This document shows positions 4,539 to 25,446 of a DNA stretch of 64,000 nucleotides, in pieces (the stretch's first letter is position 1; each line of letters opens with the position of its first letter). The stretch spans positions 397,079 to 461,078 of the forward strand of contig CAMPET010000026.1 in assembly GCA_946803715.1 (NCBI GenBank). Reading direction: 5' to 3'. A program made the position numbers and the translations under genes. The DNA is from Beroe ovata. Its lineage: Eukaryota; Ctenophora; Nuda; Beroida; Beroidae. The notes beneath the pieces were generated by a model. The model had not been told where the DNA came from and made no database searches. It saw nothing but the letters and a program-made list of their open reading frames with translations.

Positions 4539-6705
4539 ATGGCAAATAAAAACAAAAAATGTGCATATGTTGAATATGCAAAGGCCAAAAGAGAGAAATA
4601 TGAAAGAATGGCAGGAAGAAACCTATCTGTCCCAGAGCTAGTTGCATATGCCAGTGATGATTGGTCTACAGAACCTGAAGATGTAAAAATCCGTTATAAA
4701 GACATGGCCAAAGGGAGAACCATTCAGAAAGAGGGACCCAAAATGGAAACATCCTCCCAAAGAATAGAGACTGAGGCTCATATTGTAACAGAGTTTTATA
4801 TGTATGTTGTTTGTTGTGATAAATCAAGGCACACCCATAATTTCAAAAATTTTTTTGTTAAGCAATGGTATTTGAGTTTTATTATCTTGAACCATGATGA
4901 TAATGGTATATTTTCAGTGGGAGACAGTGCAACCAACAGCGTGAGTTACAAGCTGATCTTATTCATAAGGAATTCAAAAGCAGAGTGAACTCTTCAGAGG
5001 ATCTGCTCTCTTATGAATTTGGTATAATTGACTTCAACATCCATGTCAATAGTGGCAATGGATCATGTGTTCCTGCAGAGATGTCCCTCTTAATAGGAAC
5101 ACTAAAAGAGGGTATATTAAAGGAGTATGAATCAATCTTTGATATAGATCCCACCAGGTACAAGTAAACAAATATTTAGAATTCAATAGTAAACTAGTAT
5201 GGCAAAATGAGATTAACACATTATCTCAGTAGTCTCAATGATTGTACCACCTCAAGGATTTCTATAATTTTGTTGTTGGTGAAGTTGACTATCTATGCAC
5301 AAAGCCTCCTATAACAGAGCAACGAGATTTGGAAAACAGCAAAATATGTTTCAGGGATCTAGAGAAAGGACAAGCCTTCAAAGTTAAAAATAACTTTGAG
5401 AAGATTCATGGAATTGATATATATGGTAACCGCATCTCATTTGAAAATAAGCATGATATTTTGGAGCAGGTAGGAATTTTAGCATTGCAGACAATTCAGA
5501 AGGTGATATCATGGTAGGTTGGAGAATATATTGATGAAAAAATAACTTAGGTCCTAAGTATCACAAAGAATGGTCAAGTTGTCCTTTTATGTCGTAAGGA
5601 AGATCTTGAAAAAGCCACTGGATCATGGAGTTGGATTCAGAGAAATTGCCATTCTACAGATGTGCCAGATTTGAAGGTTCAAGAGATATGTCATTAAAAA
5701 GAAGTTCCTTGTTAAGAATCAGAATTGATTGAAGAATCTAGAAATACCCAAATTAAAACTTTAATTTTCAGCTCATGTACTTGGAAGAGTTTGTGCTTCA
5801 TTGCAGCAAAATATTCCAGGTTTGAGATTTATGCAAGTCAAATCAAGATACATTTGAAATTGATGTATAATGATCCTTCTCAAGTTTAATCTGTTACCAA
5901 TTATTTTTCCAGAGTACCTCAAAGGCAACTGTATCCATGTTCAGTGACATGTTGAGCAAACCTACTTTTGACTTTGAGAGAATGCTTCGATGTGATTACC
6001 ACAATGAAAATGATAATGCAAGGGATAAGTCTGCATGTGCCAAGAAAAATACAAAGAAATATTTTTTCCTGATGATGCACTTTCTGCTTGACTTTGTTGA
6101 AGGTATAGATCCAGTAGAAGGAAAGCACATGTACAGAAGTGGTGGTGTAGGTTCTAGTAGAACAAAGATGAGAGCACCAAATAACACACCTGCTACTGGA
6201 CAAAGCAATTGCACACAAATGGAATGTGATTATCCCGAGATATATATGCCAAGGAAACCGACGCAGGTTTTCTCAACCAGGGGAGCCCATTATGCATCAG
6301 CACTAAGAACAGAGTTCCCAACGACAAGTATGAGCAGCTCTGGATCCTCATGTGGGGACGAAATTATGATGCCTCGTAAACCAAAACTCGGTTCTCAAAA
6401 ATCTAAGGAAGTTGCGTCTGTTGGGCGAGGAAGAGGACGATCAGACAGGAATGATAGTTCCTCTCAAGGTTTCGTTTCCGAGGGTAAGTCGACATAAGTC
6501 TTACAATCTAACTAAGTCGTTTGAGTACAATTTTTCTAGGCATCGGCTTAATCCTGCATTTATTTCAGATTTCAGTTCGAATATAGCACCACCTGTGCTA
6601 GAGTATCGTGATGAGCATCAAAGTGAAGGTGTTCTTCCAAGAAGGCCTTTGGTTGGATCACAGACTATCAGTTTTGGGCGTGGATCTGCCCCTAAAGCTC
6701 TTTGA
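4539..6705 (+). CDS. MAEL: Maelstrom paralogue A (HMG box plus MAEL domain)
   Basis: Maelstrom proteins act in the piRNA pathway in nuage and nucleus, downstream of Piwi, in transposon silencing. Exons 4539-4801, 4918-5157, 5355-5469, 5551-5676, 5772-5819, 5913-6483 and 6569-6705 join in frame to 499 residues. Residues about 5-60 form a degenerate HMG box (KNKKCAYVEYA, then ASDDWSTEPEDVKIRYKDMA). The MAEL domain (RNase H-like fold in known members) follows. Its conserved Glu lies in CVPAEMSLL, and the Cys-His-Cys part of the ECHC motif lies in RCDYHNENDNARDKSAC. The tail has repeated PRKP/PRRP motifs and a GRGRGR stretch, the kind of arginine context that is methylated for Tudor binding in other piRNA factors. 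Intron phases match MAEL-b and MAEL-c. The open frame at 5242-5354 upstream of exon 3 is intronic. Confidence 0.85.
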
Positions 6706-7997
6706 AAATCGAGTGGGAGAATCGGGTTTCTATTTTATTTTTCCAATGTTTTATTGTGTATAGGGTTTTTAATAATTTTCGAATTGTATGAGTTAACGAT
6801 TAATCAAAATTAAGTTGTTTGTCCTTCACGATTTTCACAATTCACTTGCTGACTATCAAAAGCACATATGCGAAGTTACTATTCGCCCATAATCGGCATA
6901 TTATCCGGGTTTTCCGTGTTGCCATTGTTGCGGGTAGGTACTACTAGTACACAATAGTGACAATCCTGCTTTGATGATATTGCCGTCTCTGTTGATAGGA
7001 AAACATACGTGCTGGTTGCTTGGGCTGTTGTTCCTTATACACTCATTTTGAAGTATGGTAAAATAGTTTATTTCGATTCTTACGCTGTTCAAATGTAATA
7101 GAATTGACTGAAAGATCAACAACTGGACAAACGGCACCTTTTTATTCTTATGGGACATGGGTATAATAGTGCCGAAGCCAATAAAACAGATGTGGGAACT
7201 ATAATTGATGTGTCTATACTTTATGTGCCGGGTGTCCCTTCTTTAATACGCAAGTAATTTTTGACAGGTTTTCTATTGACTAGAATTGTCGATGAATGCT
7301 CTTGATCATTGTTGTTTCCGTGAAGAAAATAATATCGTGTTGTTTTATTAGTTGCAATCAAGTCGTTTAAAATGTTATGGCTATAGGTAGCCTTATTGCA
7401 AATGAAAATTTTTGGATGTCAATAAGTTCATACGGATAGGTAAACCTATCTTCCAAATCATCTAGTCTAATCGAATTGTTCAGGAGTAACATTTGACCTT
7501 TGTGAGTTTTTGCTCAGTGTTCGTGAATGGTGTTGGACCTCATTACTCACTACAATAGAGTGGTGTTATTACCACTTTGTAGGTTATTCTGTAATACATT
7601 GAAGCTCTTTCTGAGCTGAGATTGTGAGATTTCGTCTCAGCTGAATGTATATTTCTTTTCGATTTCTTCCCCTTGTGGAAAAGTCTTGACGTGTCATCGG
7701 ACTAGACCTCTTGTTATCAAGAGCATATACCTACCTGTTACATACCAGTATCAATTTTAAATTTTCTTATGGCTCTTGCTTCAATTTTTTCCCTTGATTT
7801 TCTATCCCATCATTGTCTCATATTAAACTCAAATAGAGCGTCATGAATATTGAAATGTTGAATTGTGTTCTTATCTTGAACTTTGCCATTAGGGGCTGCG
7901 CCTGATGTTGAATATTGCGAGTAATATAAGAGAACTGCTGAATGTAGTTTTCATCACCATACACCTCGAAAAAAAATTGAGTTATACCACTGGAAAT
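6706..7997. other. AT-rich intergenic region, MAEL-a to MAEL-b
   Basis: I see no supported gene. If MAEL-b once had HMG-box and Glu-motif exons they should lie here. The only hint is a short open stretch near 7190-7250 reading TIIDVSILY then VPGVPSLI. This is faintly like the MAEL Glu region but has no Glu, and is too weak to call. Confidence 0.45.
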
Positions 7998-9872
7998 ATG
8001 AACAGCATTGAGGAGACGGGGGACCTTGACAAATTCCTTAATAACTTATGGTAATATGAAATTTATTCGTTCCATAATACCTATGCATTATTGTACGAAA
8101 AGTGAAAATCTATTTCAATGTGATTTATGTTGCTCTCTAGATGTCTTGATTCTTGAAAATGAACCCAAAACCTTGTCAATCACTGATTCGTCAACTTTTT
8201 CAGGAAAATGTCTCGAGGTGACGACAAATCGAAGGTGAGGACTCATTAACTCTAAATATCTGTAAATTCGTCAGGTTGATTTTTTGCGCTATATACAAAA
8301 TATAGGAATGACAGTGAAAAATAAGCGAGAATTTCATGATATTATCATGAAATTCTTAAAGATGATTTTGGTCGTGTATGTTATAGTGTGATAGGTACAG
8401 CTGACGATACAATCATCATTAATATTGTACTGAACTTCTTCGATAGATTCCGTCTTTTCGCTGGAAATTAAGTACTTATCCCAAGTCTTTTCTCGAAAAG
8501 CTTTCCATCCAATAGTTTTCATCTGCTTTTGCAATACCTATCTTACCGACACATTTACGTTCTCTTTTCAGAAACCTAGGAAAGTATTCCTTGTGCAGAA
8601 TAACCAATTTAAAAAATTGAAAGGTTTCCTGAAGAAGATTGAACAGGATCAGAGGGATAATCTGCCTGAGTTTGATGTATGTCTGAGTGTATGATTCATA
8701 CAATTATTATTGTGATTCATACAAGGTGAAGCAATTAAGTCTGCGTGTACACAGTACGTTTGGTATGAATCGGATAACGTCTCCATATGTAGGTACAATG
8801 ATTAATGATTAAATTTTCAGTTGACGACCATGAATAAGTTTAAAGATCATTGTCGTGAAATAATCGAGGTGACTTTATTGCGTCAATTAACCATAGAATG
8901 CTCTATCACATTCTTTTTAATAGTTTTCATATTTTGTTTACTATTATTCAAAACGAATAGAAATTTTGACTTGTTGGTCATAAGAGCCTATCATTCATCG
9001 GTCCCAAGATCTTCAATAACCTACCAACTCACGTCACAACCGTTACCAATACTGACTCATTCAAAAAACTCATTCCTGTTTAATCTCTCAAAATCAGAAA
9101 CTATCAAACTGACAAAGTAATTTCTCAGCCGTTTGTGCTTTCATAACATAAAATATCACTTTTCACTTTCATTACTAGTTTTCTGGGCCTGGTCACCAAT
9201 CAGATGATAGATATAAAGGGCACTACTCTTTTTTCTTTGTTTCTTCATGGTTCAACAATGCTGAGTATAAGCTAGTCGTAAAAGCAGTGTTTATAAATTT
9301 CAATTTATTATAGTTATCATAATAATAAATTTCTCAGGGCGAGACACTCTCCTGTGATCTTATATTTCAAATCGGAAAAATTATCACAACTCCGATTTCC
9401 CACTTGGGAAGCAACGTTGTTTCAAGCGAGTCCCTAAAAGCGTATTTCATGTTACAAAGCTACATTCTCTATCTTCTGGATAGAAACATTCCGAGATTGT
9501 ACCACTGTATTCCTGTTTCAAAAGGAGCCGGACATGAATCAGGTCAGTTGATAAAATAATCATGGTTGAATAATGACTCTGAACCGGAATGAAAATTGCA
9601 TTTTGAGGTTGATACCTGTAATACAGCGCTGTATTTGTTGTAAATCCACTTTCCAGGTCGCATTAACTCCGGGCACCAAGGAAAGGGTAGAGCGCATCCG
9701 ATTTTCCGTATTTTCGGTAAGGACATTGAATCAAAAGTTGATGTGTTTAATTGGCCACGTTTTCTTATTTTTCATTGCTGTAAACTAACACCCAGTTTTC
9801 GTAGCCAAAGAACCTACCAGAAGACCGAAAGAGAAATGTGAGGATGAATGCATAGAATATTATGCTAATTGA
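7998..9872 (+). CDS. Shortened, degenerate Maelstrom paralogue B
   Basis: Seven exons (7998-8050, 8204-8234, 8572-8676, 8821-8868, 9338-9542, 9657-9716, 9805-9872) join in frame from an ATG at 7998 to 189 residues. Homology to the C-terminal half of the MAEL domain shows in several places. The 48-bp exon LTTMNKFKDHCREIIE matches LMYLEEFVLHCSKIFQ of MAEL-a in length, phase and pattern. KAYFMLQSYILYLLD matches KKYFFLMMHFLLDFV. KVFLVQNNQFKKLKGF matches the VVLLCRKEDLEKATG exon. The HMG box, the Glu exon and the Cys-His-Cys residues are absent. A PTRRPK motif near the C-terminus echoes the tails of the other paralogues. All splice sites are GT-AG and the frame is open, so I treat it as a gene and not a pseudogene. 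Function unknown. Confidence 0.6.
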
Positions 9873-11115
9873 TCATACTGTTTTTGTTAGACTGACTCTC
9901 TTTTATCTTTTAACTGCGGGAAGTTAGACTTGGTTCGTGATAATCAAGATTCAAAACTGTCCAACGATCATGGGAGTTGAGACGCTTCTGAGGCAGAATA
10001 TTGTATCGGGCTGATTTGATTATACTCCGGCTAGATACTGGATAATCGTAAGGGACATTTCACATATTACGTAATCAGCCGATAACTGAGGCCTGAGCGT
10101 ATACTCATAACGCTATATATACTTGTGTATCGCTATCATTCACTGTACCCCATTCAACTGAGCGTTTACTCACTGTATATCGCTAGCACTCACTTTGCTT
10201 TCTTTTTCTGAGCGTACACTCAGCCTTCGCCCTTCAAAGAAGCATATAGCGATCCACACTTACTGACGTAGCATATACTACCTCAGTATCCAACTCAAAA
10301 TGGTCGGGAGGCTAAACCGGATACAGTACTCTGAATAATAGTCGGCATACTACCCAATCAAAGCAGTAGGTGTCTTTTAGGGCGATTGCCGTGTGTAGGC
10401 CAATATTTTGTTTGTGAACAGCCGCAGGCTCGCCTGTCGGGTTCTTGATCGAAATGTTCAAGGTTTCCCCTCGCTCTAAGGATCTGATCACGAACAGACA
10501 GCAGAGCAAGTAGAAAGTCATTTTGCCCGCCATTGAGCTTGTTATCATCGGTTCACTGGATAAGACTCTGGAGAAGGCTGGCGTGTAATTACGTAATATT
10601 CACCTAGGAGAGGGAGATTTGAGCCATGATCACGAATGATACGGGAGGGGGTAAAAATGCCGTAATCTTGAACACGATATGTGGACGATCCCAAATGTTA
10701 CGTTGTTTTCTGAGGAAATTTTTTGGGGTGCACGTCTTGAATTGAATATGACGAGAATTGACATTATGTTTCCTAGGAAGACTCAATAGGTGGGAATAGG
10801 TATTTATGAGCAAATTTGTTACCAATAGATTTTTAATATTCATGCACAACTGATTTTTACATTGTCATTTTCACTTTAATTCTCTAATTCTATTTCAAAC
10901 TTTCAAATAATTTGAAGGGACTTTGTCAATCTGGCTTCTATTATACCCATTTTGATTGCTTTTCTTCTGGTGTTCTTCATTGTAGCTGTTAAAAATCATG
11001 CTGCTAAACAACAATATCATGACTGAAATATCTGCTAGCGCATATTTTCACCATTTGCATTGTGCATGTTTGCGTTATTAGCAGATGCTTTAATCATTTG
11101 TACAAATAGGTAGCT
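9873..11115. other. Intergenic region, MAEL-b to MAEL-c
   Basis: One weak minus-strand secreted-protein ORF (10312-10548) is listed separately. A plus-strand stretch around 11020-11090 has aromatic residues where an HMG box for MAEL-c would be expected, but stop codons interrupt it and I do not call it. The stretch 10090-10290 repeats short words (gagcgta, actca, tatcgcta) without a clean period. Confidence 0.4.
10312..10548 (-). CDS. Possible first exon of a secreted protein
   Basis: A 78-codon minus-strand frame has a good signal-peptide pattern near its start (MTFYLLCCLFVIRS). A hydrophilic stretch with one NISI glycosylation sequon follows. A possible donor (gattgg|gtagta) lies near 10353. 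I found no following exon downstream on the minus strand, and I recognise no family. It may be chance. Confidence 0.25.
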   Translation of the reverse strand: MITSSMAGKMTFYLLCCLFVIRSLERGETLNISIKNPTGEPAAVHKQNIGLHTAIALKDTYCFDWVVCRLLFRVLYPV

Positions 11116-14100
11116 ATGGAAATTTACCACACAACTCGGAGTAACTATATCTATGGAAGGATGGAGACGTCTAGTCAACGCCTTGAGACAGAGGCCCCCA
11201 TCACAATGTATAATAAAATGTGAGTCTACCACCAAGTACCTATACTATACTACTATAGAACTGCCTTGTAAAATGTGGTGTGTGATATCTGGGCAATATC
11301 CATGCGCTATAATAGGTACCCTGCAATCAGCTGAAGTGCATTATAGATACTGCTTGAACTGCCAATATCATCCAATATTTCAAAATTAGTGAACTCATTA
11401 CCAGATACTCAGCGAAACATTAAAATGAGTTAAATCTGATCCACTTACTTCTATTTTTCTTGTATGGACTCTCCAATAATCTAGTTTACCATAATATTGA
11501 GTTACTTCTGTACTTCAGTGGGAGAGAGCAAGAGGAAAGGAACCATAGGCAGGCACAGGAGCTATGTACAATGTTAACTTCCCGTCTCCAATCCATGACA
11601 TTGCAGGAGATATGTGAAATGGAAATTGGAGGTGAGGTGTTTGCAAGTATTTGAAAATGTTTGTGGAGGTGTCCTCATTTCGGAGGAAAGTAGAGCGAGA
11701 TAATACTCTTCATTCTCTAACAATGTTCTAGAAATTTCCATTTCTCGACCCTCCATGAAGACCTACTCCTCTTTCAGTTGTTGACATATCTACTTTCGTT
11801 GACTACGGGGACGGCCTGTCCTTACCTGCTGAAGTTGGAATCGCAAGGAGCAAACTCGGCGACTTAGGCACTTGGAGCATTTACTCCGCAATACCTGAGA
11901 TCCTTCCTCAACACCGAAGGTTTTCATCCTATTCCTCTTCATAAAAAAGGGCAAAGTCAAGATTATAACAGAGTAACAGCTAAGAGTGTATTGCAATATA
12001 AAGTTTCTCAAAGATTCTGATTTTGTACTTATTGAGAGGTTAATTAATTGAATCTTATGGGCTGGTCGATGTATCATTGCATCAACCAATGATAAGGTTT
12101 ATTCTTGATGATGTTCTTTGGCTCAGGGTCGGATATGCGTCCGACTGCAAAAAATCCTGCGAGGATTGTCACGGAATTGATGTTCTTGAGAGTCGTCCCT
12201 CAAAGTTACCTCTCAGTGAAATGTGCCACGATGTAAGTAGCGAATTTTGCACTTCTCATTAACGGATCATCGTCTTTGCTCTTATTCTACAAAAATGCTT
12301 GATTTAGCTTATTTTCTATCTATCATGAAAGGAATGCTTTGATAGGTAGGCTCATGCTTGCCACACACACCACTACTCCAGTGATAAAACTCCTACTCCC
12401 AGCTCGTGGATGAGGTACAGTCAAAGATTCTCCTCCTCTGTAGATCCGAGGACTTGGACAGGGTGCTCGGAGGATGGATGTGGATGAGGGAGAATAGTGG
12501 CGCCACCCTGAGGAATGTGAAGGTGAGGACTGAGGAGTATAATAGTTGAGTTGTTGGTGTTATCGAATATCGTGAAAAAGAAATGGACAATATAAAAGAA
12601 GTTGGAGAAGTATAATTACTGGCAAGTGGGATGAAATTTGAACAAAGGGAAGAAATGAGCTCAGTGATGATAAAATGAAAAAGTTTATCATAGCAGTATA
12701 CGGGCACAAAATTTAGATATTCGAAATTTCCTGAAGCCGCTGATTCATTTACCTCGTATTCAAAGTGATGTTTAAACATTGTTGAGTAACATTAAACACC
12801 TACATCAAGATACCGGATTGGTTGATAGCCTCGTGACATCAACGTACCAACCAATCGTGAGAAATCATCAAGTCACGTGTTGACAATTCCGTCGGGAAAT
12901 TAATGCTTAATAAAGCGTTCACAACTGTGGTATAAAGCTGTCAAAATATGAATATCAAAGTATGAGCCACCTTCACCCACTCTCTCCCTCCCTGTTCCCC
13001 TAGTTAAAGCACGTTGTCACATTGCGTGTGGGTCATTTTATATGACACACGCCAGCCACTCTGCATTGCTCCCTTTTGATAGCAGTTGTAACTCTGATGT
13101 TCTAATATAACGTACCCCATTTCCTATGGCTATTCGCAGACGATTGATCGCTGAGCAGTGACGCAGTAATTCAAACACCTTGTAATACGATACTTCCAAA
13201 AGTTGAGAAATTGATCGATTGGGCAGTGTTTGAGGTGAAAATGTGAGGTAGAATGAGATTGCTCCCTGATTCACAATGACGGTGCCCTGGGTTGAAATAC
13301 TTTGTTATATGAGTGCGTGTTTTTGGGTGATTTTTGATAATCGTCGTTTGATAACTTGTTGTGTCTCATCATTCCCCCTCGCAAAGTAACGCGTTAGTCC
13401 AATTATCATCACAGTAATCGGGCAGTAAACCATCAAATCGCGGTGCTAATGTAGATGTTCACTGTTCAGATTGTCTTTAGTTCTCGTTGCTAAGACAACG
13501 CTACTTGTCCTGGATCATCGTGTTTATTAGCGTCGTAGTCGTGTAATAGTCATGACATATCTGCATTTCAACGTATTTGCTTCTACTTGAAACGACCTTT
13601 TCTTGTGTCGCTATGTGGTAACTATGATTGAATATTATGTGTCATAATGAGCATAAATACCGTAATCTCTTGTTGTGGCCATATATATTTTCCGTGATCA
13701 CAAACCGACCAAGTCTTGTTGTCACATATTTAGAGATAGCTACCGAAATTTAATAGGCAAAAGTCTGTAGCTCCCGATTAATATTCTTAATTTCATCGAT
13801 CAGTTTTTTATGCAATCCTGTTCCTGTTATATACTCCGCAATCGCATTAATGGGAGTACCCGGATTACCTTTAGAATTGGGCGATGATTGAGCTCGATGA
13901 TTGATGAGGCTTCAATCGTGAGATATGATGAGGTCACAGTAGACTCATGTCATGCTCGTCTAATATTGAAAACCCATGTCTATACACGATATCATTATGT
14001 ACTTATCAAATGTGACATCGGTGACATGTAATTTTGAGTTAAATATCGCAGAACATAGCGGATAGCTTGCTGATTGCATTCTCTGCCTCTCGTGACATCG

Positions 14101-17100
14101 CTGAGGACTGAGGATGTGAAGTAGACTTGTCAGTAGTATTTCCAAATACATACAGCTGACAAAATGTCATGTCGCTGTGCTCATATTTCAACCTTGTTGG
14201 TAACCATAGCAACGCTATAATAATGCTCTATAGAGGAGTTTTGTCCTACATCTCTGCATACTGCTCACCTTACATCATAGTTCTTTCAAAATATAATGTA
14301 CAATTCGTATTGTATTGATTCTTGCTATACGTCTAGCACTGTGCGTAACAATCTCCCTCTCTGGCTCAGTATAGTTTATTTAACAGTAATTGGATCACGC
14401 GTGTTTCTCTCTGCATGCTTTAATATTATCACTCATGATTTAAATACGATGTGGTTATTGCGTGTTTCTGCCAACTGTTTTCGTGCCAATTGTTCGGCTA
14501 TTGTCGTTCGTTTCAATCTATACATCTAAAGTATAGCACAGGGGAACGGCGTTTATTGAAATTTCCGCCTCACTCCATTGTCTTGTTGACTTCCCCGTTG
14601 CTTGTTACCAAAGAGTCAAAAACTTGTCATTTTTCAGGTCCTTTATTGACATCATGATAAATTGATAAGTCTTGGGTGAAGTTGTAGTCGAAACTCACTT
14701 TTTAAGCCAGTTGCCTCCACACACCCGGGCTTTCTTATTCTGAAAGAATAAGGTGTTCCCTCATAAGATGTTCCTTCACAAGTTCCTCCAGTTGGTCATT
14801 GGCGGAGTGCCAATTATTTCAAAGGGCAGGTTGACCTGTATTTCTGTATGGCCAATATTATAGCTGTGTGTTTATATTTATACTCGATAGCAGCTGCGCA
14901 ATGTGTTCCACTGTGTGTACAGTATAAACATGCTTCAGATTGCTTTATTGCCCATATTTAGATCATTGCACATGATGTTATAGTACTGTAGTATCTGCCT
15001 TGCTTCTCCTCCAGCTAAATTGTTCTTTATTGCTTACGTTGTGTGGTGGTGGTACATAGTACAGTGCTTCCAGCACTATACTTCGAGACTTTGTACAGAA
15101 TTTTGTATTTCGTGACGATATTCATTATCATTGATAGTGGCACTAGAATCCACTAGAAAACCATCTACCTTCAGTCACATGCTACAGTCACATGATTCAT
15201 CGCAGATGTATTATACTGTAGCATCGGAATATGATGAACAGACATAATATAGGTATCATATCGGGATAAATTAATCGATTTGTTCAGATTCATAATGCAG
15301 TGATGGAGATGGGTGGTGCCACAAAAACGTGTTTCATTTTGTCAGGCAACAAGACGTAGTATACCCAGTATAGTTATGTCTCCTAAAGCTCCTCATGTTT
15401 AATTACGAGTTCAAATTGTTTATCTCCAATTTCCATGTAATACTGCAAGCTCCTAGCGCCTTATGTTTAAAACTTGAACCCTCACATGTTGATCACAGAT
15501 TAATGAGTGTTTGTAGTGATCCTAGTGTCAATCTCTGCTTACTGCTAGGCTTTACCGAACTATGTATACCCGTCTTTGTATACTGCAAAGTGCATACTGA
15601 AGACACAATTTCGTGGTAGATAAGATGTCCTTAAATTATGCATCCTGTGGGATTCCCTTCACTCTACTAGTTCTTTATTTTGTGAAGTGGTTTCTATGCA
15701 GTATTTTGCGTATATTTACTTCCTATAATTGGGTCTTATATCCACATCGTTTTGCTACATCATCATATCAGTGATCACGTCACGTACTAAACTCCTTATC
15801 AACAGATGTTCTCCATCTCTCTTCTACTTGTGTTGCTCCCTCCTCTTGCCCTCTCCAAAGTCCAGTCGGGAGACTTCACCTCCCTAACCTCATCCTCTGG
15901 GTGGCACTACCTCGCTCGATTCTGTTTCCGACCTGGCAACGACCACTCAACGACCTCTGATGAACGGAGACTGTCCTGGGAAGTGAAGTTTAGTCGGGAC
16001 ATGTGCTGCCCCATTCTGAACATCTACTACGACACCGATCACCAGTGGCATGGGGTTTACCGATCCAACTTGTCGTGTGTTGGGAGAGTTGCAAAAGCCA
16101 GGGCTAGGATTCCGCTGACAGAACCGACGTGTGTCCTAGATAAGGACTCCAATACTTACAAGTAATCTTCTTATACTTGCTCTTACCTTCCTTTGTCCAA
16201 TGTCCATGATCCACTGATTCAATTTCATACACTTACTCAATATAATATCATTCATGATATCGAGCAATAATTTCACTTCAGATGCAAAGGTTTCCGGTAT
16301 ATCTACAGCAATAGACCACGATGGTGGTACCTAGCTCTTTCCAACTGCGATAGCCCAGGCTACAACTTGGACTACTCCCTTACCTTTACCAACGGTGACT
16401 CTTTCCTAGACCGACAATTCTCCGCCGACGAGCTGGGCATCATGGAGATGAACTTCTTCTCAATCTGCATCACAATCATTCTTATCGGTGGCTCTCTCAT
16501 CTACACACGGCTGCTAAAACTACGGAAGTTCTATCACGTGACATTCAAGACATACCAAGCATCTCTGATATTCTACTGTCTGAGTTGTATCCTCCTTGCT
16601 ATCTACTACACTCTTATCGGGGCAGAGGGCACGGCTCCCATACATTTGTATGTCATCGCTCAGACTCTCCTTGTGGTCTCTACCACGTGTTTCCTGGGGC
16701 TTCTCCTCATGTTCTCTAAAGGATACTCCATTGTCGTTTCCGCGTTGACGACGCAGAGTTTCACAGAAGTCATGTTGTTCACAGCTACATTTGCCATGCT
16801 CATGCTGTACTGTGTCATATGGGAACAAGGTGCATTTGACCCGGCAGATGTGGTTTATCTTTATCAATCACCTCCTGGATACATGCTAACGGGTCTCTAT
16901 GTGGCAGCCTGGTTCTATTTCATCCTCAATTGTGTCAGAGTGGGGATCAAATTTGCAGGGAAACGCAGCTTCTACTCCGTGCTCGGTGGTTTTTACAGTC
17001 TGTGGCTCCTTGTGGTGCCTCTTGTTATTGTTGTCTGTAACACTGTAGTGAAGGACTATTCGAGAATGAAAACAGTCTTCATATGTCAGCAGATCATTTG

Positions 17101-19508
17101 GCTGATGTCCTACCTTTACATGTTCATCCTGTTCAACCCCTCGCGGTCCAACAAACACTTTCCATTCCACTTGCGGTCGACCCAAGTCTCTGATGGAACT
17201 GGTATTCAGGGTGGAGAGAACAACTATAACGTTTCACAGGACAGGGACACTGGAGATATCTTTAGGGTGGGATATGACTCTCAGGGTCCCTACGACCCGG
17301 CCAGTCTCGGTCATAAGGGACCTACCGAACAGAAGCAGGAGAATGGATTGGTTATCAAGAACGGAGTTAATAAGAACGGGGGTCATGAGAATGGGTTTAT
17401 CCCGATTGAAGGTGCGGGTAATCAAGCTAAGCAAGATCATTCTGGTGCAGCTAGGTTTGGCAATCTTGAATCGGACACTGAGCATGTATATGATAATGAT
17501 GAGTGTGGAAACCGGAATGGGATCAAATTGGTTTCCGTGATGTCAAATAGCTCTGACTTTAACAACACTGACACAGATGTCAATACAAATTTCAATACAT
17601 GATACCTAGTGATGTTCCGACATGACTTCATTGTCAAGAAATTTCTTATCAGTTATAAATAAAGCGATGTTATTCCCAACAGAGATTTTCGCCACTGAAA
17701 ATAACTGAATAATATTGATGGTATTTTGCCAGTTTTTTCTATTTTTGATTTTGCATGCTTTTCGAATTATCCAGAACGCATGTCTCGAGAGAAAAACTGA
17801 CCTTGATTTTTACGGCATATTTTAGTTTCTATCATTTGGTTCACTTGCTTTGCAATATCAATTCAAATTTTCAGTAATTGCAGTAAGTAAACAAAAACAT
17901 ATTATTTTCGAATGAAACCTGCTTAGTATAATGCACGCTAAGTACTAAGCGACAAAACTTGAGTTTAAATTTAAATTTGGTCAATTTCAAGCAATGAATA
18001 ATAGGAAGGGATGGGACAGGGGGTTCTACTCGCTCCTTTAGCCGGGACGTTTGCAAATCATTGGTTCAAATTATTACCGATTGTCTTCACTCTATCGATT
18101 TTGACCCTACATCTGTTTCAGGTCATGAAGATCGAAGATTTCCTCATCAGTGTTCTCAACAGATTGAATGCTTTGACTGAGGTAGATTGTGGCTAGGAAT
18201 TAATTATGATATCGTCGACTATCACATTGTTAGGCTACCTACCTCATTGAAGTGTATACGGAGACAAGTTCAAAACAATGTGACATATGTGTCCTATTTT
18301 CAGTCAAATGATGCTGTACCAGTGTTCACACAGTTCACGACTTTATTCTCCACGTCCAAAAATGACTTCAACTGGATGTACAGGTATAACTTATGCACTG
18401 ATAATGAAATTAATCTAATAAACTAATTGTGAAATATGTATAATTATGAAAACAATCTCATAAATCTAATGATAGTTATCTCTTATCTACTACAATACCT
18501 ATATCATTTCGTAATTCTTACCACCTAATTTTCAGGTGTACGTATCACAACGAAGAGGAGAGTGCGTGGGATAAAAGTGCATGCTCCCGAAAGAATGTCC
18601 TCAAATATCTGGACATCATCAATGATTGTTTGGGAGATAAACTGCATCCTGATGTCACTGAACCGTTGGCTGAAAGCACTTCTCCTCAGCCACAACAAGC
18701 TCACTGCTGCGCATCGCAGCAGGAATATGATATGTCCAGCTCAGACAATCCACAAGACGTGTCTCCATCTGATGAACTGGCTGAAAAAAGGAAGTCCCTT
18801 GAAGCATCTCCGAATAGACTCTTAACACCAAATGACTTTGCAATCCCGGCAAAGGAAACCAAAGTCCCACGACGACCATATCCGCAGAGTTTTTCAGCAA
18901 GAGACAAGTGCAGTAAGAAGCGGGCTCCACAGAATTCTGGATCCTCGGCATCTTGCTCTTCTTCTTCTCCAAGACCTCCTCTGTCAGCAGCAGAGGAATT
19001 ACAGCTCCTCTCGATAGAGTTATCCAGCAGTGACACCAGCTCCACAAGCAGTGAACAGAATCCACTATCCAACGTGCAGCAAGTTGACGAGACCGGCACA
19101 GGGATATGCAGCACTTTGGCATATGCTGTCAATGAGGGTGGTGGGGATGGTGATGGCGCTGTCTTTGATTTTGCAGGTCCCACCAATTCTTACAAAGAAA
19201 CATATACCGTCCACGCAAGTGTTAACGGTTGCAAAGTTATGCCCAATGCAGAGAAACCAGTCTTCGAGCGAAGTGATGATAATAAACCGTCCTGCTCTGG
19301 AGTCCCTGCTAAAACTGAGATGAGAATTTCAACAATATCTGAACCTGAGCAGAGAGAACTTGACAGTCCTCAGTATCCACCTGGATTTGGACCAGTACCT
19401 ATGCATAGAGGAGAGCTGGCTGATTTCATATCTATAAGCTCCATCGAGTATCGTGTTAGTGGAACAAACACTTCCGAGAAGAGGCGGAAAAAACGAGGAC
19501 GCATATAA
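11116..19508 (+). CDS. MAEL: Maelstrom paralogue C, split by a gene-containing intron
   Basis: Exons 11116-11219, 11519-11631, 11778-11919, 12127-12232, 12403-12522, 18122-18181, 18304-18383 and 18536-19508 join in frame to 565 residues. The first exon ends METSSQRLETEAPIT, close to METSSQRIETEAHIV at the end of MAEL-a exon 1, with the same phase-2 junction. No HMG box is visible before it, so the protein may start at this ATG or have lost or hidden an upstream exon. The MAEL domain keeps the Glu (SLPAEVGIA) and the Cys-His-Cys (RCTYHNEEESAWDKSAC). Exon CHGIDVL matches IHGIDIYG of MAEL-a. The 5.6-kb intron 12523-18121 contains a TMEM145-type gene on the same strand. Intron phases on both sides (0/0) equal those of MAEL-a, which favours a single gene, but two separate fragments remain possible. 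The tail is Ser-rich with a VPRRPYPQSF motif. Confidence 0.68.
12523..15805. other. Intron / intergenic stretch upstream of TMEM145-like gene
   Basis: I found no coding exon on either strand with convincing splice sites. The short open frames here (for example minus 13038-13274) have no domain or neighbour support. The last part probably includes the promoter of the TMEM145-like gene. Confidence 0.45.
15806..17602 (+). CDS. TMEM145: TMEM145/GPR180-family seven-transmembrane protein
   Basis: Two exons (15806-16161 and 16282-17602, phase-2 junction) encode 558 residues. A signal peptide (MFSISLLLVLLPPLALS) leads an extracellular beta-rich domain with several cysteines. The family signature WWYLALSNCDS and FSADELGIMEMNF comes next. 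Seven hydrophobic segments follow between about residues 175 and 408, for example MNFFSICITIILIGGSLIY. The tail of about 150 residues is rich in Asn and Gly. GPR180/TMEM145 proteins are plasma-membrane or secretory-pathway receptors of the GpcrRhopsn4 type; their ligands are not settled. I prefer TMEM145 over GPR180 from the WW-C and FSADE spacing, with modest certainty. A poly(A) signal AATAAA lies at 17658-17663. The gene is nested within the long MAEL-c intron. Confidence 0.85.
17603..18121. other. TMEM145-like 3' UTR and rest of MAEL-c intron
   Basis: Contains AATAAA at 17658-17663. The remainder is AT-rich, with a clear polypyrimidine tract and tttcag acceptor ending at 18121 that opens the next MAEL-c exon. 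Confidence 0.6.
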
Positions 19509-19939
19509 AATGGCTTTTCTTAAAGAAACTCACTGAGTGACCAACACTCTTCATAGAGAGTGGAGCTGCTATTGGCTGGTCATTAGCAGACTCTGGATAT
19601 GATCTTAGTGAGACAGATTATCTCAGATTATCAACTGATTATCTCAGATATTATCAATTACTGTTAATAATCCTCTAGTTGGAGTTTTGAAGAGACGCTG
19701 GTGGGAGACACCATTAATTTATTTTTTTCATAAAAACTTATCATCGTATAACTTATTAGATTTAAACCAATCTAAACTATTTATTAGAACTTTAACGAAC
19801 AATTAATTATAAGTGTGAGCTACAGCTGATGCCATCATAACATCTTTCTTCAACATTGAACTTCGTGTTATCATGTCGTTTTCAATCCACATTTCATCTT
19901 AAACAAATTAGTGGCGGGCTAAAATAACAGAGTCATCCA

Positions 19940-20055
19940 CGCCAGCACATACACGGTACACATACACAGTACACACACAGTACACACACACACACGCAGT
20001 GCACACACACACACTGTGCCCATGCACACATACACACACAGTACACACACACAAT
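19940..20055. repeat. CA-rich microsatellite
   Basis: Imperfect (CA)n with tacacag interruptions. Minus-strand cysteine/valine-rich reading frames over it are artefacts. Confidence 0.9.
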
Positions 20056-20512
20056 CGCGTACAGATGTATAAATTCCTGGAAAAGGGTAATTTGATCGCA
20101 CCAATCTCGAAATAGAATTAAAGTGTCCATAGTGCTTGTGCGTATTGTGATTGTTTCATTCTACCCCTAAAACTGTGACCATATACACGCCATGCATACA
20201 CACATCGAATCATTGAAAGTGTATCATTATAATTGTTTCGAAAACTTTAAACTACCCTTATGAGAATTTATCTCCATGCATCCTGATTAATTCCCTTGAG
20301 CAGTCAGCCGTTTCACAACTGTTTTTCTGATATCGGCCCTGTCACACTGTCACATAGAATAGTGGTCATGCTTAGTACGACACTATGTCATGACGTGATG
20401 ACGTGATGAGTCTGTGATTACAGCTATGTCTGTAACTGCTGTCTACCCGTGTCTCAGTTTCACTGTCGAGTGTCGCTTCGTATTCTAACTGTTATCAGTG
20501 ACTTTACTAAGT

Positions 20513-20600
20513 GTGCAGCTAAGTGTGTGATTAGAATGCGTGATTAGAGTGTGTGATTAGAGCGTGTGATTAGAGCGTGTGATTAGAGTGTGAGCTGTGC
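20513..20600. repeat. 14-bp tandem repeat
   Basis: About five copies of gtgtgattagagc(g/t) with small variations. Confidence 0.85.
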
Positions 20601-20967
20601 GTGATCATGGAGACAGGTCGTTGGAGGTAAACCTGTAAATCAAAGCTTTTTGAAGGTATGAAGTGTCATCAAATAGTTGAATTTTCAGTGTCAAAGTGAA
20701 ATTTAAGAAAGTTTCGCATAAATGTCCAGAGATCAGAAATCGAGCGTGATGTGATGATACGCTTGTCACTTGTAATTTGAAACATGTCGCTTTGCTCGAC
20801 TTGACAGTGTTATTATCATTAAACTACCAGATTGAAGTCAACTTTCTTGAACAGTGATCGCACGCGATACTTACGCCTATTTCTGATGCGAGATAAAGAT
20901 CAGATAAACGCAATACAATATGAGATGTGACACGTGTGACATGCGAATTTGAGTGGACGCTGGGTCC

Positions 20968-20979
20968 CACGCACACACA

Positions 20980-21020
<41 letters not shown>

Positions 21021-21031
21021 NACACACACAT
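20968..21031. repeat. CA microsatellite with single N
   Basis: A (CA)n run interrupted by one unresolved base at 21021, probably an assembly join or a repeat-length ambiguity. Confidence 0.9.
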
Positions 21032-21521
21032 ACCTCATAGAAACCTGTCATACGCATAACATAGACACATATATAAACACATGAGGTGTGTGTATAAACA
21101 CACACTTCAAAAAACCTGGATTTTTATCGCTATGACGGATCGTTCAAACACTCAAGATAGGGAAGAAATGAACTCGCTGCACCACGATGATCAATATTGC
21201 ATATTAAACAGTGGGGTGTATCTGCGACCCACTTACCTACCTGGAATATATGTTATCATTATCATCCTTATTATTAGTTGTAGGTTATCTTAATTGTATA
21301 TTACCTTAATTGTACAATGTACATTATCTTAATCATCATTATTCTGTCTGAAATCCGTGTCTTACTTTGAATGACGCCTCCAGTAGTAGAACAAGTCTGG
21401 AAAATTCTCGAACTTTCCTTGATCCACATTGTTTCAAATCATCACAATTCCCCAGTCCCCCTATATAAAATCCACTGGCCACGCCCACTAACACCCTGTC
21501 CCCCTGTAGGGAAATAGCGCC

Positions 21522-22370
21522 ATGTTGAAAACACTCCTATCCCGGGCCACGCCCTCCCTCCTACCCTGTGCTAGGAGACTCCTATCCTGCGATGCTGCTT
21601 CATTCGAGACTGTTCTCGTGGAGAAGCGTGACAAGGTGGCACTTATCACCCTCAATCGGCCCAAAGCCCTCAACTCTATCAATCTGCAACTGATTGATGA
21701 TCTGAATGCGGCAGTCCGAGCGGCTAATGAGGATGCTGATATCGGTGCGATAGTGTTGACCGGGTCTAAGAAAGCATTTGCTGCGGGAGCTGATATCAAG
21801 ATGATGGAGCCCATGTCCTTCTCAGACACGTACAAACTCGGACTTTTTAACGACCTGGAGAATGTGACCAAGGGGAAGAAACCTATTATCGCAGCAGTGA
21901 ACGGCTTCGCACTGGGTGGTGGCTGTGAGTTGGCCATGATGTGCGATATTATATATGCTGGGGATAAGGCCAAGTTTGGGCAACCTGAGATTACGCTAGG
22001 TGTCTTGCCTGGGGCTGGGGGCACTCAGCGACTGACCAGATCAGTTGGTAAAAGTAAGGCAATGGAAATGTGTCTAACGGGTAACTTCATTGATGCTACA
22101 GAGGCTAAGCAAATAGGACTAGCTGCTCAGGTATACCCTAGTGAGGAACTTGTTGATAAATCAGTCGAGACAGCCGCTAAGATCGCATCTTTCTCCAAAA
22201 TTGCTGTCGCAATGAACAAGGAGGCCGTGAATGTGGCTTACGAGACCTCGCTACAACACGGTCTGGATTATGAGAAACGGCTATTCTACGCCTCCTTCGC
22301 CACCAAGGACCAGAAGGAGGGCATGGGCGCGTTTGTGGAGAAGAGAAAACCTGACTTTAAGGACGAATAA
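21522..22370 (+). CDS. ECHS1: Mitochondrial short-chain enoyl-CoA hydratase (intronless)
   Basis: This enzyme hydrates 2-trans-enoyl-CoA to 3-hydroxyacyl-CoA in mitochondrial beta-oxidation and valine catabolism. One open frame of 282 residues matches the family length. The N-terminus (MLKTLLSRATPSLLPCARRL) is Arg-rich and lacks acids, as expected of a mitochondrial presequence. The crotonase signature covers KAFAAGADIK, the oxyanion-hole region GFALGGGCELAMMCD and GQPEITLGVLPGAGGTQRL. The two catalytic glutamates are E136 (GGGCE) and E156 (GQPE). No intron interrupts the gene, unlike most neighbours. The stop codon lies inside an AATAAA (22366-22371). It sits between MAEL-c and MAEL-d on the same strand, with no evident functional link. 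Confidence 0.96.
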   Translation: MLKTLLSRATPSLLPCARRLLSCDAASFETVLVEKRDKVALITLNRPKALNSINLQLIDDLNAAVRAANEDADIGAIVLTGSKKAFAAGADIKMMEPMSFSDTYKLGLFNDLENVTKGKKPIIAAVNGFALGGGCELAMMCDIIYAGDKAKFGQPEITLGVLPGAGGTQRLTRSVGKSKAMEMCLTGNFIDATEAKQIGLAAQVYPSEELVDKSVETAAKIASFSKIAVAMNKEAVNVAYETSLQHGLDYEKRLFYASFATKDQKEGMGAFVEKRKPDFKDE

Positions 22371-22371
22371 A
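22366..22371 (+). terminator. Poly(A) signal overlapping the ECHS1 stop codon
   Basis: AATAAA spans the TAA stop (22368-22370). If it is used, the 3' UTR would be only about 10-30 bases. A later alternative signal cannot be excluded. Confidence 0.4.
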
Positions 22372-22761
22372 TACACTCTGAATTATTTTTCTTTCACTAT
22401 TAAAGTTAATCACTACATAACTGATTGAGATATAGTGTTACTTGTTATAAAGATCCAGGACACTGGCAGATGTATGTTTGTATCGGAGTGTCGTTCACTC
22501 TTTTTAACCCTCTCTTTTTGTGTATTATGTTTCACTGTCAGATTTATAGCATTCACTTCTTTTTATTTCTCAGAATTGTGCGCTATTCGCTTCTCTTTCT
22601 GCTTGATACACGTTTCAAAACTTACATATTATGTACATTAATTAATCGCCTGCCAAAGATAGATAGGAAACTGAATTTTGACCCAATCCCTCACTTTCTA
22701 GACAGTTAAGGTAGAGATGGAAATATCTTTGCCTGGGGAACAGGTTCAACCATTGCCAAAG

Positions 22762-25446
22762 ATGGCAAACAAAAATAGGAAGAACAACCAGAAGAACAAG
22801 CCGAATGGGTTTATTTGCTTTGCAAATTCACAGAAAAAGGAACTGGCTTCGCAGTACAATATCCGAGGTTACTCTTTGAATTGCTTGTACATTGTTAACT
22901 TTATTCGAACTTAACTCTTGTGCATTACGTGTGACGTGTCCATTCTATTCTTATCACCTGGAATTAACACTGCAGTCATCTTGACAGCCATTCGATATTC
23001 ATTAGATTTCGTCACGCGCGGTAGCATTTTTCCACAATTTCAGCATGGGTAAAGTACTAATTTTGGCCGGGCCGGGCGCGCGCATAGTGCGTCGCGCCGC
23101 GCATGTATGTTGTACGAGCATTCATGTACAATGTAAACAAAACCATATTTGCTACCATACTCGCTACACTCGCACTTTGTTCAGGTCCACAGATGTTGGT
23201 GCAATTGTGTGACCCACTGTGGAGGAAGCTGACTCCTGATGAAAAGAAAGTGTGGAATCAGAAAGCAAAGGACGAACACGCTAGAAACACGGGTAGAAAG
23301 CCCACTGATCCCGGCCTTAGGATGGATTGTAACAGGAAGATCATATCGGAACGCCAAGACGCTGAGAGGGCGCAGATTCAGCGCAGGAACAGAGAACAAA
23401 GGGTAACTCACCCCTTATTATTTCACTGAATCATTGAATTAGTAGCGGTGTCTTGAAACAACAAATTCCTACCGACCCGGAGTAATTTGAATAACCCCAG
23501 TTCGTGAGAGAAGAACTGGAACGGTGTGGGGAAGTTATGGAAAAGGAGTTCTACATTATAGACGCTCTCTCTATAGTGGAGTATTTGGATGGAGAGTTTG
23601 TGCCGTGTGAAGTGGGCGTGGTCAAGTGTACCATCAGAGATGGGATTATCGGTCATTATCACTTCTTCCCTGATCCTGGACCTCTCAGGTACTGCGACTC
23701 CTAATCATTATAAATCGTCAACATCTGATTCAAGTCTCAGACCGATGATAACCTGTAGTACGTGATATTGTGAAAATTGTGATAGGTGATAACTGTGACT
23801 CTTGTTTCAGGGCCGGATTCTTTGCCGAAGCGCTGGAGCGATGTGATTTGGAACATGAAATTAAACCCAAAGATTTCCCCCTTGCCAGCAATGATTACGA
23901 GCTGGACGTTTCCAAAATGATTGACTTAATGAACCTCCGCTCGCCAAAAACTCCGTTTATCTTCGCCCGATCGAGCGAGGCAAAGAGAGCCGAGAGTTGT
24001 CTTGAATGGTTGGGATTCAGAGTGAACCAGGAGTTCAGACCCAAAGTGATGGAGTTGGAAAGTTTTATTGAAGAGTTGATAACCGCCACACGGAATCAGC
24101 CGCCAACATTCGCTCAAATCAGGAGACTCCTCTTCGAGACCAAGTTTGATTTTGTCCGTGGGAACAGGTGCGATTTCCATAGTCAGACAGACAAGATCGC
24201 GTGCAGCATCGGAAATGTGAAGAAATACCTGTACTTCATGTGCGAGATGCTGTACGATTACTACGAATTTGATCTTCTTGAGGGTCGTCATTTCCCTCTG
24301 GGATACGAGGCTTCGTCCTGCCCCTCACGACCTTCCCTCAGCACTCCATCGTCCATCATTGGAGACGATGGTCTCGATGAAATCTCCTCTCTGGCATCCA
24401 GCTTCTCTATTGGATCATATGAGCACAAACGAAACGTGGAACATCCCAGGAAGCCTGATAATTCATTCTCAAACCGGAAAATTGCAAATGACATTCCAAG
24501 CTCAGGGAGCAGCATTTCTGCGAGAAGCAGCAAGTCACTTCCCAACTCCAGTGCTCCTAACTCTTTCTCTAACATCAACAGTTCCCAATATAGTGACAGC
24601 CACATCCGGACTGCCGACAGTAACGTGACTGACACGTGGTCTATTCACTCAGAGCCACCGCGACGCCCAAACTCTACTGACTGTAGAAAACCGATGTCAA
24701 CTCCCATTAACGCGGCGTATGTGTCTGGGGTGAACTCCTTTGCGTCTGGTGTTTCACCTAGCTACAATCATCCTCAACAGAGAGCAGCACTATATGGCAA
24801 CAGTTCTGTGAAATCCCCACAACAAAACAGCTTACACTACCACTCCCAATCTTTGCACAGCTTCTCCTCTCCTACACATACAAGCCAATATTCCACCAAC
24901 AGCAACACTCCAAACCCTTACAGCAACCCCCCAACCTCTTACAACAACCCATCCAGTCATCATAACAACTCCCTGAGCCCCCACAATATGTCCTCCTCTA
25001 GCCTCCACACAAGCAGCTCCACCTCCTACATAAACAACCCCTCTAACTACAACAACAACAGCAACAGCCTCTCTAGCTACAACAACAGCAACAACAACAA
25101 TAACAATAAAAACCCCTCAAACTACAACAAAAACAGCAACAGCCCCTCTAACTACAACAACAACAGCAACAGCCACTCTTACTACGACAACAGCAACCTA
25201 AAGAGTCTCCCTCCCCACCGTGACTCCATCTCAACTCCACTGACGGGGTTAAGCCCCATCTCATCACTGGGCCGAAGTCGGGGTCGAGGCCTGTCATCAT
25301 CATCGCCTCTCGGTGCCTCCTCCACATTACCTCCCTCAATCCCTACCACTTCGAGGGGCAGGGCAAGGGGCAATGTCCCTGCTGCACCGCTCCCACGGCG
25401 ACCCAATGTCTGCCCGAGTAAAGCGAAGGATAGAACCATTCAGTGA
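22762..25446 (+). CDS. MAEL: Maelstrom paralogue D with long Asn/Ser-rich tail
   Basis: Exons 22762-22867, 23185-23402, 23501-23688 and 23811-25446 join in frame to 715 residues. An HMG box occupies about residues 15-75 (GFICFANSQKKEL, then LWRKLTPDEKKVWNQKAKDE) and is the best preserved of the cluster. Unlike in MAEL-a, an intron splits it. The MAEL domain follows, with FYIIDALSIVEY, Glu in FVPCEVGVVKC, FPDPGPLR, and Cys-His-Cys in RCDFHSQTDKIAC. Its second half is one large exon, where MAEL-a and MAEL-c have several, so introns were lost or gained. The last 430 or so residues are low complexity, with Asn, Ser and Tyr repeats. PRKP, PPRRP and LPRRP motifs and RGR stretches (GRSRGRG, SRGRARG) are present. 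Likely role: piRNA-linked silencing. Confidence 0.88.

Follow-up and report, generated by a model that had tools for sequence, protein, structure and literature searches.

A cluster of Maelstrom-type genes in Beroe ovata

We analyzed a window of 64,000 nucleotides from the ctenophore Beroe ovata (contig CAMPET010000026.1, here C26, of a genome assembly of 77.8 Mb in 534 contigs), in which a cluster of Maelstrom-type (MAEL) genes occupies positions 4539..25446. Maelstrom serves in the defense of the germline against transposons. An initial annotation of this DNA had proposed four such genes in one orientation. Our count is three well supported gene models, MAEL-a, MAEL-c and MAEL-d, and one weak, apparently degenerate relative, MAEL-b; the common orientation holds, MAEL-a, -c and -d all lying on the + strand. 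The gene models are hand-built exon chains with AG/GT borders, predicted from genomic DNA alone, and the labels b and c were assigned to their places via exon features named in the initial annotation. Domain matches are judged against the curated Pfam cut-offs, 22 bits for Maelstrom (PF13017) and 25.4 bits for HMG_box.

MAEL-a (4539..6705, + strand) has an open frame of 504 amino acids (aa) in seven exons and matches Pfam Maelstrom at 48.6 bits. Its first exon, 4539-4801, encodes an HMG box and linker and is followed by exons 4918-5157, 5340-5469 (with a predicted acceptor, picked on phase), 5551-5676, 5772-5819 (48 bp), 5913-6483 and 6569-6705; the intron phases are, in order, 2,2,0,0,0,1. 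Among Protein Data Bank (PDB) structures, MAEL-a reached Maelstrom 4ybg, which we take to be the Drosophila protein, only at E 0.064. A comparison with a protein database reached no animal relatives, none of its 6514 candidates having E <= 10.

By its matches, MAEL-d (22762..25446, + strand; 715 aa) is the most canonical copy of the cluster. Its four exons (22762-22867, 23185-23402, 23501-23688 and 23811-25446) encode a predicted protein that scores 75.6 bits with Pfam Maelstrom and aligns with the Maelstrom chain 9nhc_F across both the HMG and MAEL domains (E 4.3e-13), with Bombyx 5af0 over the MAEL domain (E 5.4e-6) and with 4ybg (E 7.4e-5). The HMG_box matches of MAEL-a (16.8 bits) and MAEL-d (24.2 bits, slightly below) fall under the cut-off, though both are at the right place.

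MAEL-c, with 565 aa in eight exons, is modelled in two halves. The 5' half (11116..12522, + strand) comprises exons 11116-11219, 11519-11631, 11778-11919, 12127-12232 and 12403-12522, with phases 2,1,2,0,0 and an assumed start codon, and encodes the linker and the first half of the MAEL domain. The 3' half (18122..19508, + strand) comprises exons 18122-18181, 18304-18383 and 18536-19508 and encodes the second half of the domain followed by a long tail; its 60-bp exon, 18122-18181, is the counterpart of the 48-bp exon of MAEL-a. Joined, the two halves match Pfam Maelstrom at 29.5 bits, covering 7-200 of its 215 positions. For MAEL-b and MAEL-c, the initial annotation had stated that a missing MAEL-domain match would refute its proposal, and this applies in half: MAEL-c exceeds the cut-off only when joined, and MAEL-b has no match. 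A MAEL domain was thereby recovered in three of the four proposed proteins, with the HMG box of MAEL-a and MAEL-d below threshold.

Shared introns, zinc residues and an old local duplication

The initial annotation had described the copies as strongly diverged, and the local identities bear this out: 30.8% between MAEL-a and MAEL-c, 22.8% between MAEL-a and MAEL-d, and 28.1% between MAEL-c and MAEL-d. Pairwise shuffle tests also place the three above chance, and the two halves of MAEL-c reach z 37.8 and 19.8 against MAEL-a (0/500 shuffles as good in each case). Gene structure links them as well. As had been claimed, MAEL-a and MAEL-c share a phase-2 junction between HMG box and linker (exon ends 4801 and 11219), beside which 12 of 15 linker residues are identical, a peptide match of E 0.076 when taken alone. 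These two copies also have in common the phase-0 introns that flank the short exon, and a further phase-2 intron, within the N-terminal half of the MAEL domain, is common to MAEL-a, -c and -d.

A tree of MAEL-a, -c and -d with the Bombyx and Drosophila proteins, MAEL-b being left out, groups MAEL-a with MAEL-c and sets them apart from MAEL-d and both insect proteins (ultrafast bootstrap 98%); against placing much weight on this split, the tree holds just five sequences, of which the Drosophila one is partial. Outside the cluster, no Maelstrom was detected in the whole genome with the Pfam family or with MAEL-a, -c and -d as queries. These searches were made exon by exon and did not detect even MAEL-b, so that copies as diverged as MAEL-b would escape them.

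An old local duplication is supported by the intron positions and phases shared between MAEL-a and MAEL-c (and probably MAEL-b), the divergence of the copies, the grouping of MAEL-a with MAEL-c in the tree and the absence of another genome match. The initial annotation's old tandem duplication thus stands as to age and locality but not as a row of four simple units, since a TMEM145-family gene and an ECHS1-like gene intervene. We propose two or more ancient local duplications of an ancestral Maelstrom gene. MAEL-d would have kept a near canonical form with HMG box and MAEL domain, and a second lineage would have given rise to MAEL-a and MAEL-c, with the degenerate MAEL-b probably an offshoot of MAEL-a. 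These duplications may be specific to this lineage.

The residues of the Maelstrom zinc site were read from motif positions, the ECHC motif and the residue roles being taken from passages of a study of Bombyx Maelstrom (PMC4408791). All four are kept in each of the three copies: E142, C296, H299 and C311 in MAEL-a; E91, C243, H246 and C258 in MAEL-c; E145, C291, H294 and C302 in MAEL-d. The first DEDD pair (DxE), the only pair at which loss of the nuclease residues was judged, by alignment, is missing, as is usual for animal Maelstroms: at the place of Bombyx D122-x-N124 we find DFN in MAEL-a, DIS in MAEL-c and DAL in MAEL-d. Because the ECHC residues are kept and the first nuclease pair is absent, MAEL-a, -c and -d are predicted to be RNA-binding proteins.

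MAEL-b, a candidate relative of MAEL-a

MAEL-b (7998..9872, + strand) is a candidate gene of 222 aa, an open chain of eight exons (7998-8050, 8204-8234, 8275-8373, 8572-8676, 8821-8868, 9338-9542, 9657-9716 and 9805-9872). It came to light only when the window was scanned for phase-0 exons of 48 bp resembling the one in MAEL-a. Among the 196 open AG/GT segments on both strands, the exon of MAEL-a itself scored 85, segment 8821-8868 scored 27 and the next scored 9. The short exon that the initial annotation had assigned to both genes is therefore placed at 5772-5819 in MAEL-a and, as a candidate, at 8821-8868 in MAEL-b.

We lean toward reading MAEL-b as a degenerate sister of MAEL-a. In the profile alignment, both borders of its 48-bp exon fall on the same residues and in the same phase as those of MAEL-a. 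Exons 3-5 (68 residues) align with MAEL-a better than any of 1000 shuffles (z 4.7), and for the whole of MAEL-b 11/1000 shuffles did as well. A MAEL profile scores MAEL-b at 6.4 bits, which 3/3000 shuffles equalled. The codon score of exons 3-6 is near that of MAEL-a and exceeds all 800 of 800 open non-coding chains.

Several results weigh against this kinship and favor instead a small gene of other origin, or open segments that form a chain by chance, adjoining MAEL-a and unrelated to Maelstrom. In Pfam, no Maelstrom match was found at E <= 10, the best family being ARM_Cnot1 at 0.11. Similarity of MAEL-b to MAEL-c, MAEL-d, Bombyx and Drosophila Maelstrom was not significant in shuffle tests, which leaves MAEL-a as the one significant partner, and exon 6 reached significance with none of the five MAELs. 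The profile score also depends on which sequences contribute to it: shuffles did as well in 8/3000 cases when MAEL-c was left out, in 64/3000 without MAEL-d and in 187/3000 without MAEL-a and MAEL-c. The candidate itself came from a scan of many segments. One modelled intron is just 40 bases long (8235-8274), and the 68-residue stretch was selected after the profile alignment had been viewed; because of these last two points our leaning toward a sister of MAEL-a is a qualified one. We give the unrelated gene or chance chain an appreciable, though smaller, likelihood. Set against it are the coinciding borders and phase of the 48-bp exon, the shuffle results with MAEL-a and the MAEL-a-like codon use of exons 3-6.

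Neither an HMG box (Pfam) nor the ECHC zinc residues were recognised in MAEL-b, and elsewhere in the genome it has no match below E 1.7. Three other readings of this region were rejected. MAEL-b and MAEL-c as two halves of one gene, which would make three genes only, was dropped once the scan had yielded 8821-8868. An HMG box seen by eye in exons 4-5 gave no Pfam HMG match, and the profile puts these exons in the MAEL core with matching borders. A MAEL C-terminus in a frame near 8980 was likewise dropped, as this stretch lies in a dispersed repeat (8974..9326, + strand) inside the putative fifth intron. More specifically, the 469 bases of 8869-9337 have 43 matches in the genome, of which one is the stretch itself and the other 42 fall within query positions 106-458. 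One frame of the repeat resembles the terminal part of a putative LINE reverse transcriptase.

MAEL-c and the TMEM145-family gene between its halves

The stretch that separates the two halves of MAEL-c holds a same-strand gene of the TMEM145/GPR180 family of seven-transmembrane proteins (15806..17602, +; Pfam GPR180-TMEM145_TM 95.1 bits, TMEM145_N 67.2 bits), with a single intron between exons 15806-16161 and 16282-17602. Its position, strand and phases fit one intron of MAEL-c, and our best reading is that MAEL-c is a single gene with the TMEM145-family gene nested in its predicted fifth intron, 12523-18121 (5.6 kb).

The evidence for a single gene comes from how the halves fit together. They encode non-overlapping, complementary parts of the protein and join precisely at the intron that matches the one between the 126-bp and 48-bp exons of MAEL-a, the phase being 0 on either side. 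Of the zinc residues, the 5' half supplies E91 and the 3' half supplies C243, H246 and C258; the zinc site therefore needs both. Taken apart, the 5' half (without its first exon) scores 14.2 bits, below the Maelstrom cut-off, and the 3' half has no Pfam match. A profile built from MAEL-a, MAEL-d and two insect Maelstroms, that is with MAEL-c left out, recovers four of the eight exons at 14.7, 10.7, 13.7 and 14.7 bits, compared with 7.5 bits for the best match in 20 shuffled windows and 7.2 bits for the best unrelated real match. These four matches are ordered 122-161, 166-191 and 200-242 in the 5' half, then 285-327 in the 3' half, with no second set at E <= 10. With a profile that includes MAEL-c itself, its exons tile positions 64-325 once.

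Not all results favor this assignment. The other four exons were not detected by the leave-c-out profile at E <= 10. A profile made from MAEL-d and the insects alone gives MAEL-c exons of 9.8, 7.7 and 5.7 bits, where the best unrelated match has 6.4, and a PDB search found no Maelstrom entry at E <= 10; in consequence, the identity of MAEL-c depends on Pfam together with its resemblance to MAEL-a and MAEL-d. No HMG box was found for it in Pfam or profile searches. As to the intron, its 5.6 kb far exceeds the 40-469 bp of the other introns of the four models, and an AATAAA at 12909 could terminate a separate 5' gene.

The last two points would suit a locus in which remnants of two genes, the first missing its 3' half and the second its 5' half, now stand on either side of TMEM145 and the regulatory DNA of that gene. 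An in-frame M as the second codon of the 18122 exon and the intact frames within each half are also in keeping with such remnants. Independent losses would nevertheless have had to leave halves that complement each other with no overlap or loss, meet at one intron in matching phase 0 and, between them, keep all four zinc residues. Neither half alone would be expected to make the fold, and no further MAEL piece was detected between them by pairwise, Pfam or profile searches. We consider two remnants unlikely. If MAEL-c is instead a single gene with a nested TMEM145-family gene, its transcript would have to be spliced across the inner gene for a complete MAEL domain to be made. The second exon of the TMEM145-family gene matches only itself in the genome (E <= 0.001), so that a retrocopy with a living parent is not supported.

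Neighboring genes

Between MAEL-c and MAEL-d lies an intronless gene resembling ECHS1 (enoyl-CoA hydratase; 21522..22370, + strand; Pfam ECH_1 279.8 bits), whose other genome matches have at most 39% identity. Elsewhere in the window, at 28598-30106, reading frames judged by eye to resemble F-box/leucine-rich-repeat proteins enclose an unread stretch (X).

Discussion

Taken together, we consider it probable that local duplications produced this cluster, with MAEL-d as the canonical copy, a MAEL-a/MAEL-c lineage to which MAEL-b may also belong, a gene nested in MAEL-c, and RNA-binding products. That MAEL is usually a single-copy gene, as the initial annotation assumed, is true of the majority of species, but passages of a 2008 survey already list two copies in Ciona, two in Aedes aegypti, three in Culex pipiens and five in Entamoeba (PMC2628886). 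A further maelstrom duplicate, in the Drosophila pseudoobscura group, was published in 2019 (PMC6505081). Lineage-specific MAEL expansions are thus already known, and the predicted cluster adds another case (PMC2628886, PMC6505081).

Like the expansions of the 2008 survey, the Beroe locus has several old, diverged copies in one genome; unlike them, as far as the passages of that source go, in which clustering is unstated, its copies are gathered on one strand within 21 kb and one of them apparently hosts another gene (PMC2628886). The D. pseudoobscura group likewise has an extra maelstrom copy, and adaptive evolution is reported for that new duplicate, but in the portion of the paper used here its origin is a move from an autosome to the X at about the obscura/pseudoobscura split, whereas the Beroe duplications would be local and far older (PMC6505081). 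In a partial literature search, we recognised from titles and abstract openings no published clustered MAEL expansion and no MAEL gene hosting another gene. As for nesting in general, passages of one source give nested genes as 12.4% of genes in the sponge Aphrocallistes, typically 5-10% elsewhere and almost zero in several genomes (PMC10282587).

With regard to function, Bombyx Maelstrom (5af0) is described, in the passages we draw on, as inactive as a nuclease and as binding single-stranded RNA (PMC4408791), and the HMG box of mouse MAEL as binding structured RNA (PMC4373776, in part). MAEL-d resembles the Bombyx protein over the aligned MAEL domain in keeping ECHC and having lost DxE (PMC4408791); the differences lie in MAEL-c, where no HMG box was found, and in MAEL-b, where no ECHC was recognised. 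We would expect MAEL-a, -c and -d to encode catalytically dead proteins with an RNase-H fold that the ECHC zinc site holds together, and these proteins to bind single-stranded RNA in transposon silencing by the PIWI-piRNA pathway.

In this genome, Piwi domains are encoded on four contigs; the closest matches are PIWI proteins for those on C56 and C200 and AGO proteins for that on C151, C62 being the fourth contig, and a pair of CHHC fingers, presumably GTSF1-like, lies side by side on C295. Given the PIWI-clade genes and the CHHC finger pair, a piRNA pathway is likely in this genome. The predicted C-terminal tails carry short motifs of the form PR(K/R)P, three in MAEL-a, one in MAEL-c and three in MAEL-d, with one TRRP in MAEL-b; GRG occurs twice in MAEL-a, once in MAEL-d and in neither MAEL-c nor MAEL-b. 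Such motifs bind Tudor domains.

That the copies are unlike one another in HMG box and tail hints at specialised roles, in line with what the initial annotation had envisaged; germline function, expression and a division of labor among them can so far be put forward only as conjecture. One arrangement, which we regard as possible but doubtful, would assign divided tasks to a canonical HMG-MAEL protein (MAEL-d), a diverged HMG-MAEL protein with GRG (MAEL-a), a form lacking both HMG box and GRG, whose production would depend on splicing over a seven-transmembrane gene (MAEL-c), and a zinc-less remnant (MAEL-b), acting with different PIWI proteins or in different tissues. We also consider it unlikely that MAEL-a, -c and -b are eroding with little constraint on them while MAEL-d alone works in the piRNA pathway. 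MAEL-d is the copy nearest to known Maelstroms, to judge from its best PDB match (E 4.3e-13, compared with 0.064 for MAEL-a and no Maelstrom entry for MAEL-c). Yet MAEL-a and MAEL-c run without an internal stop over seven and eight exons, keep four of four ECHC residues at 23-31% identity and share the PR(K/R)P tail motif with MAEL-d, all of which argues for continued constraint on them.

To our knowledge, the mode of action of Maelstrom is not settled. With the zinc site kept in three copies whose HMG box and tail vary, it should be possible to distinguish what each part contributes, and the apparent same-strand nesting within MAEL-c would provide a clean test case for the splicing of a host gene over an inner one.

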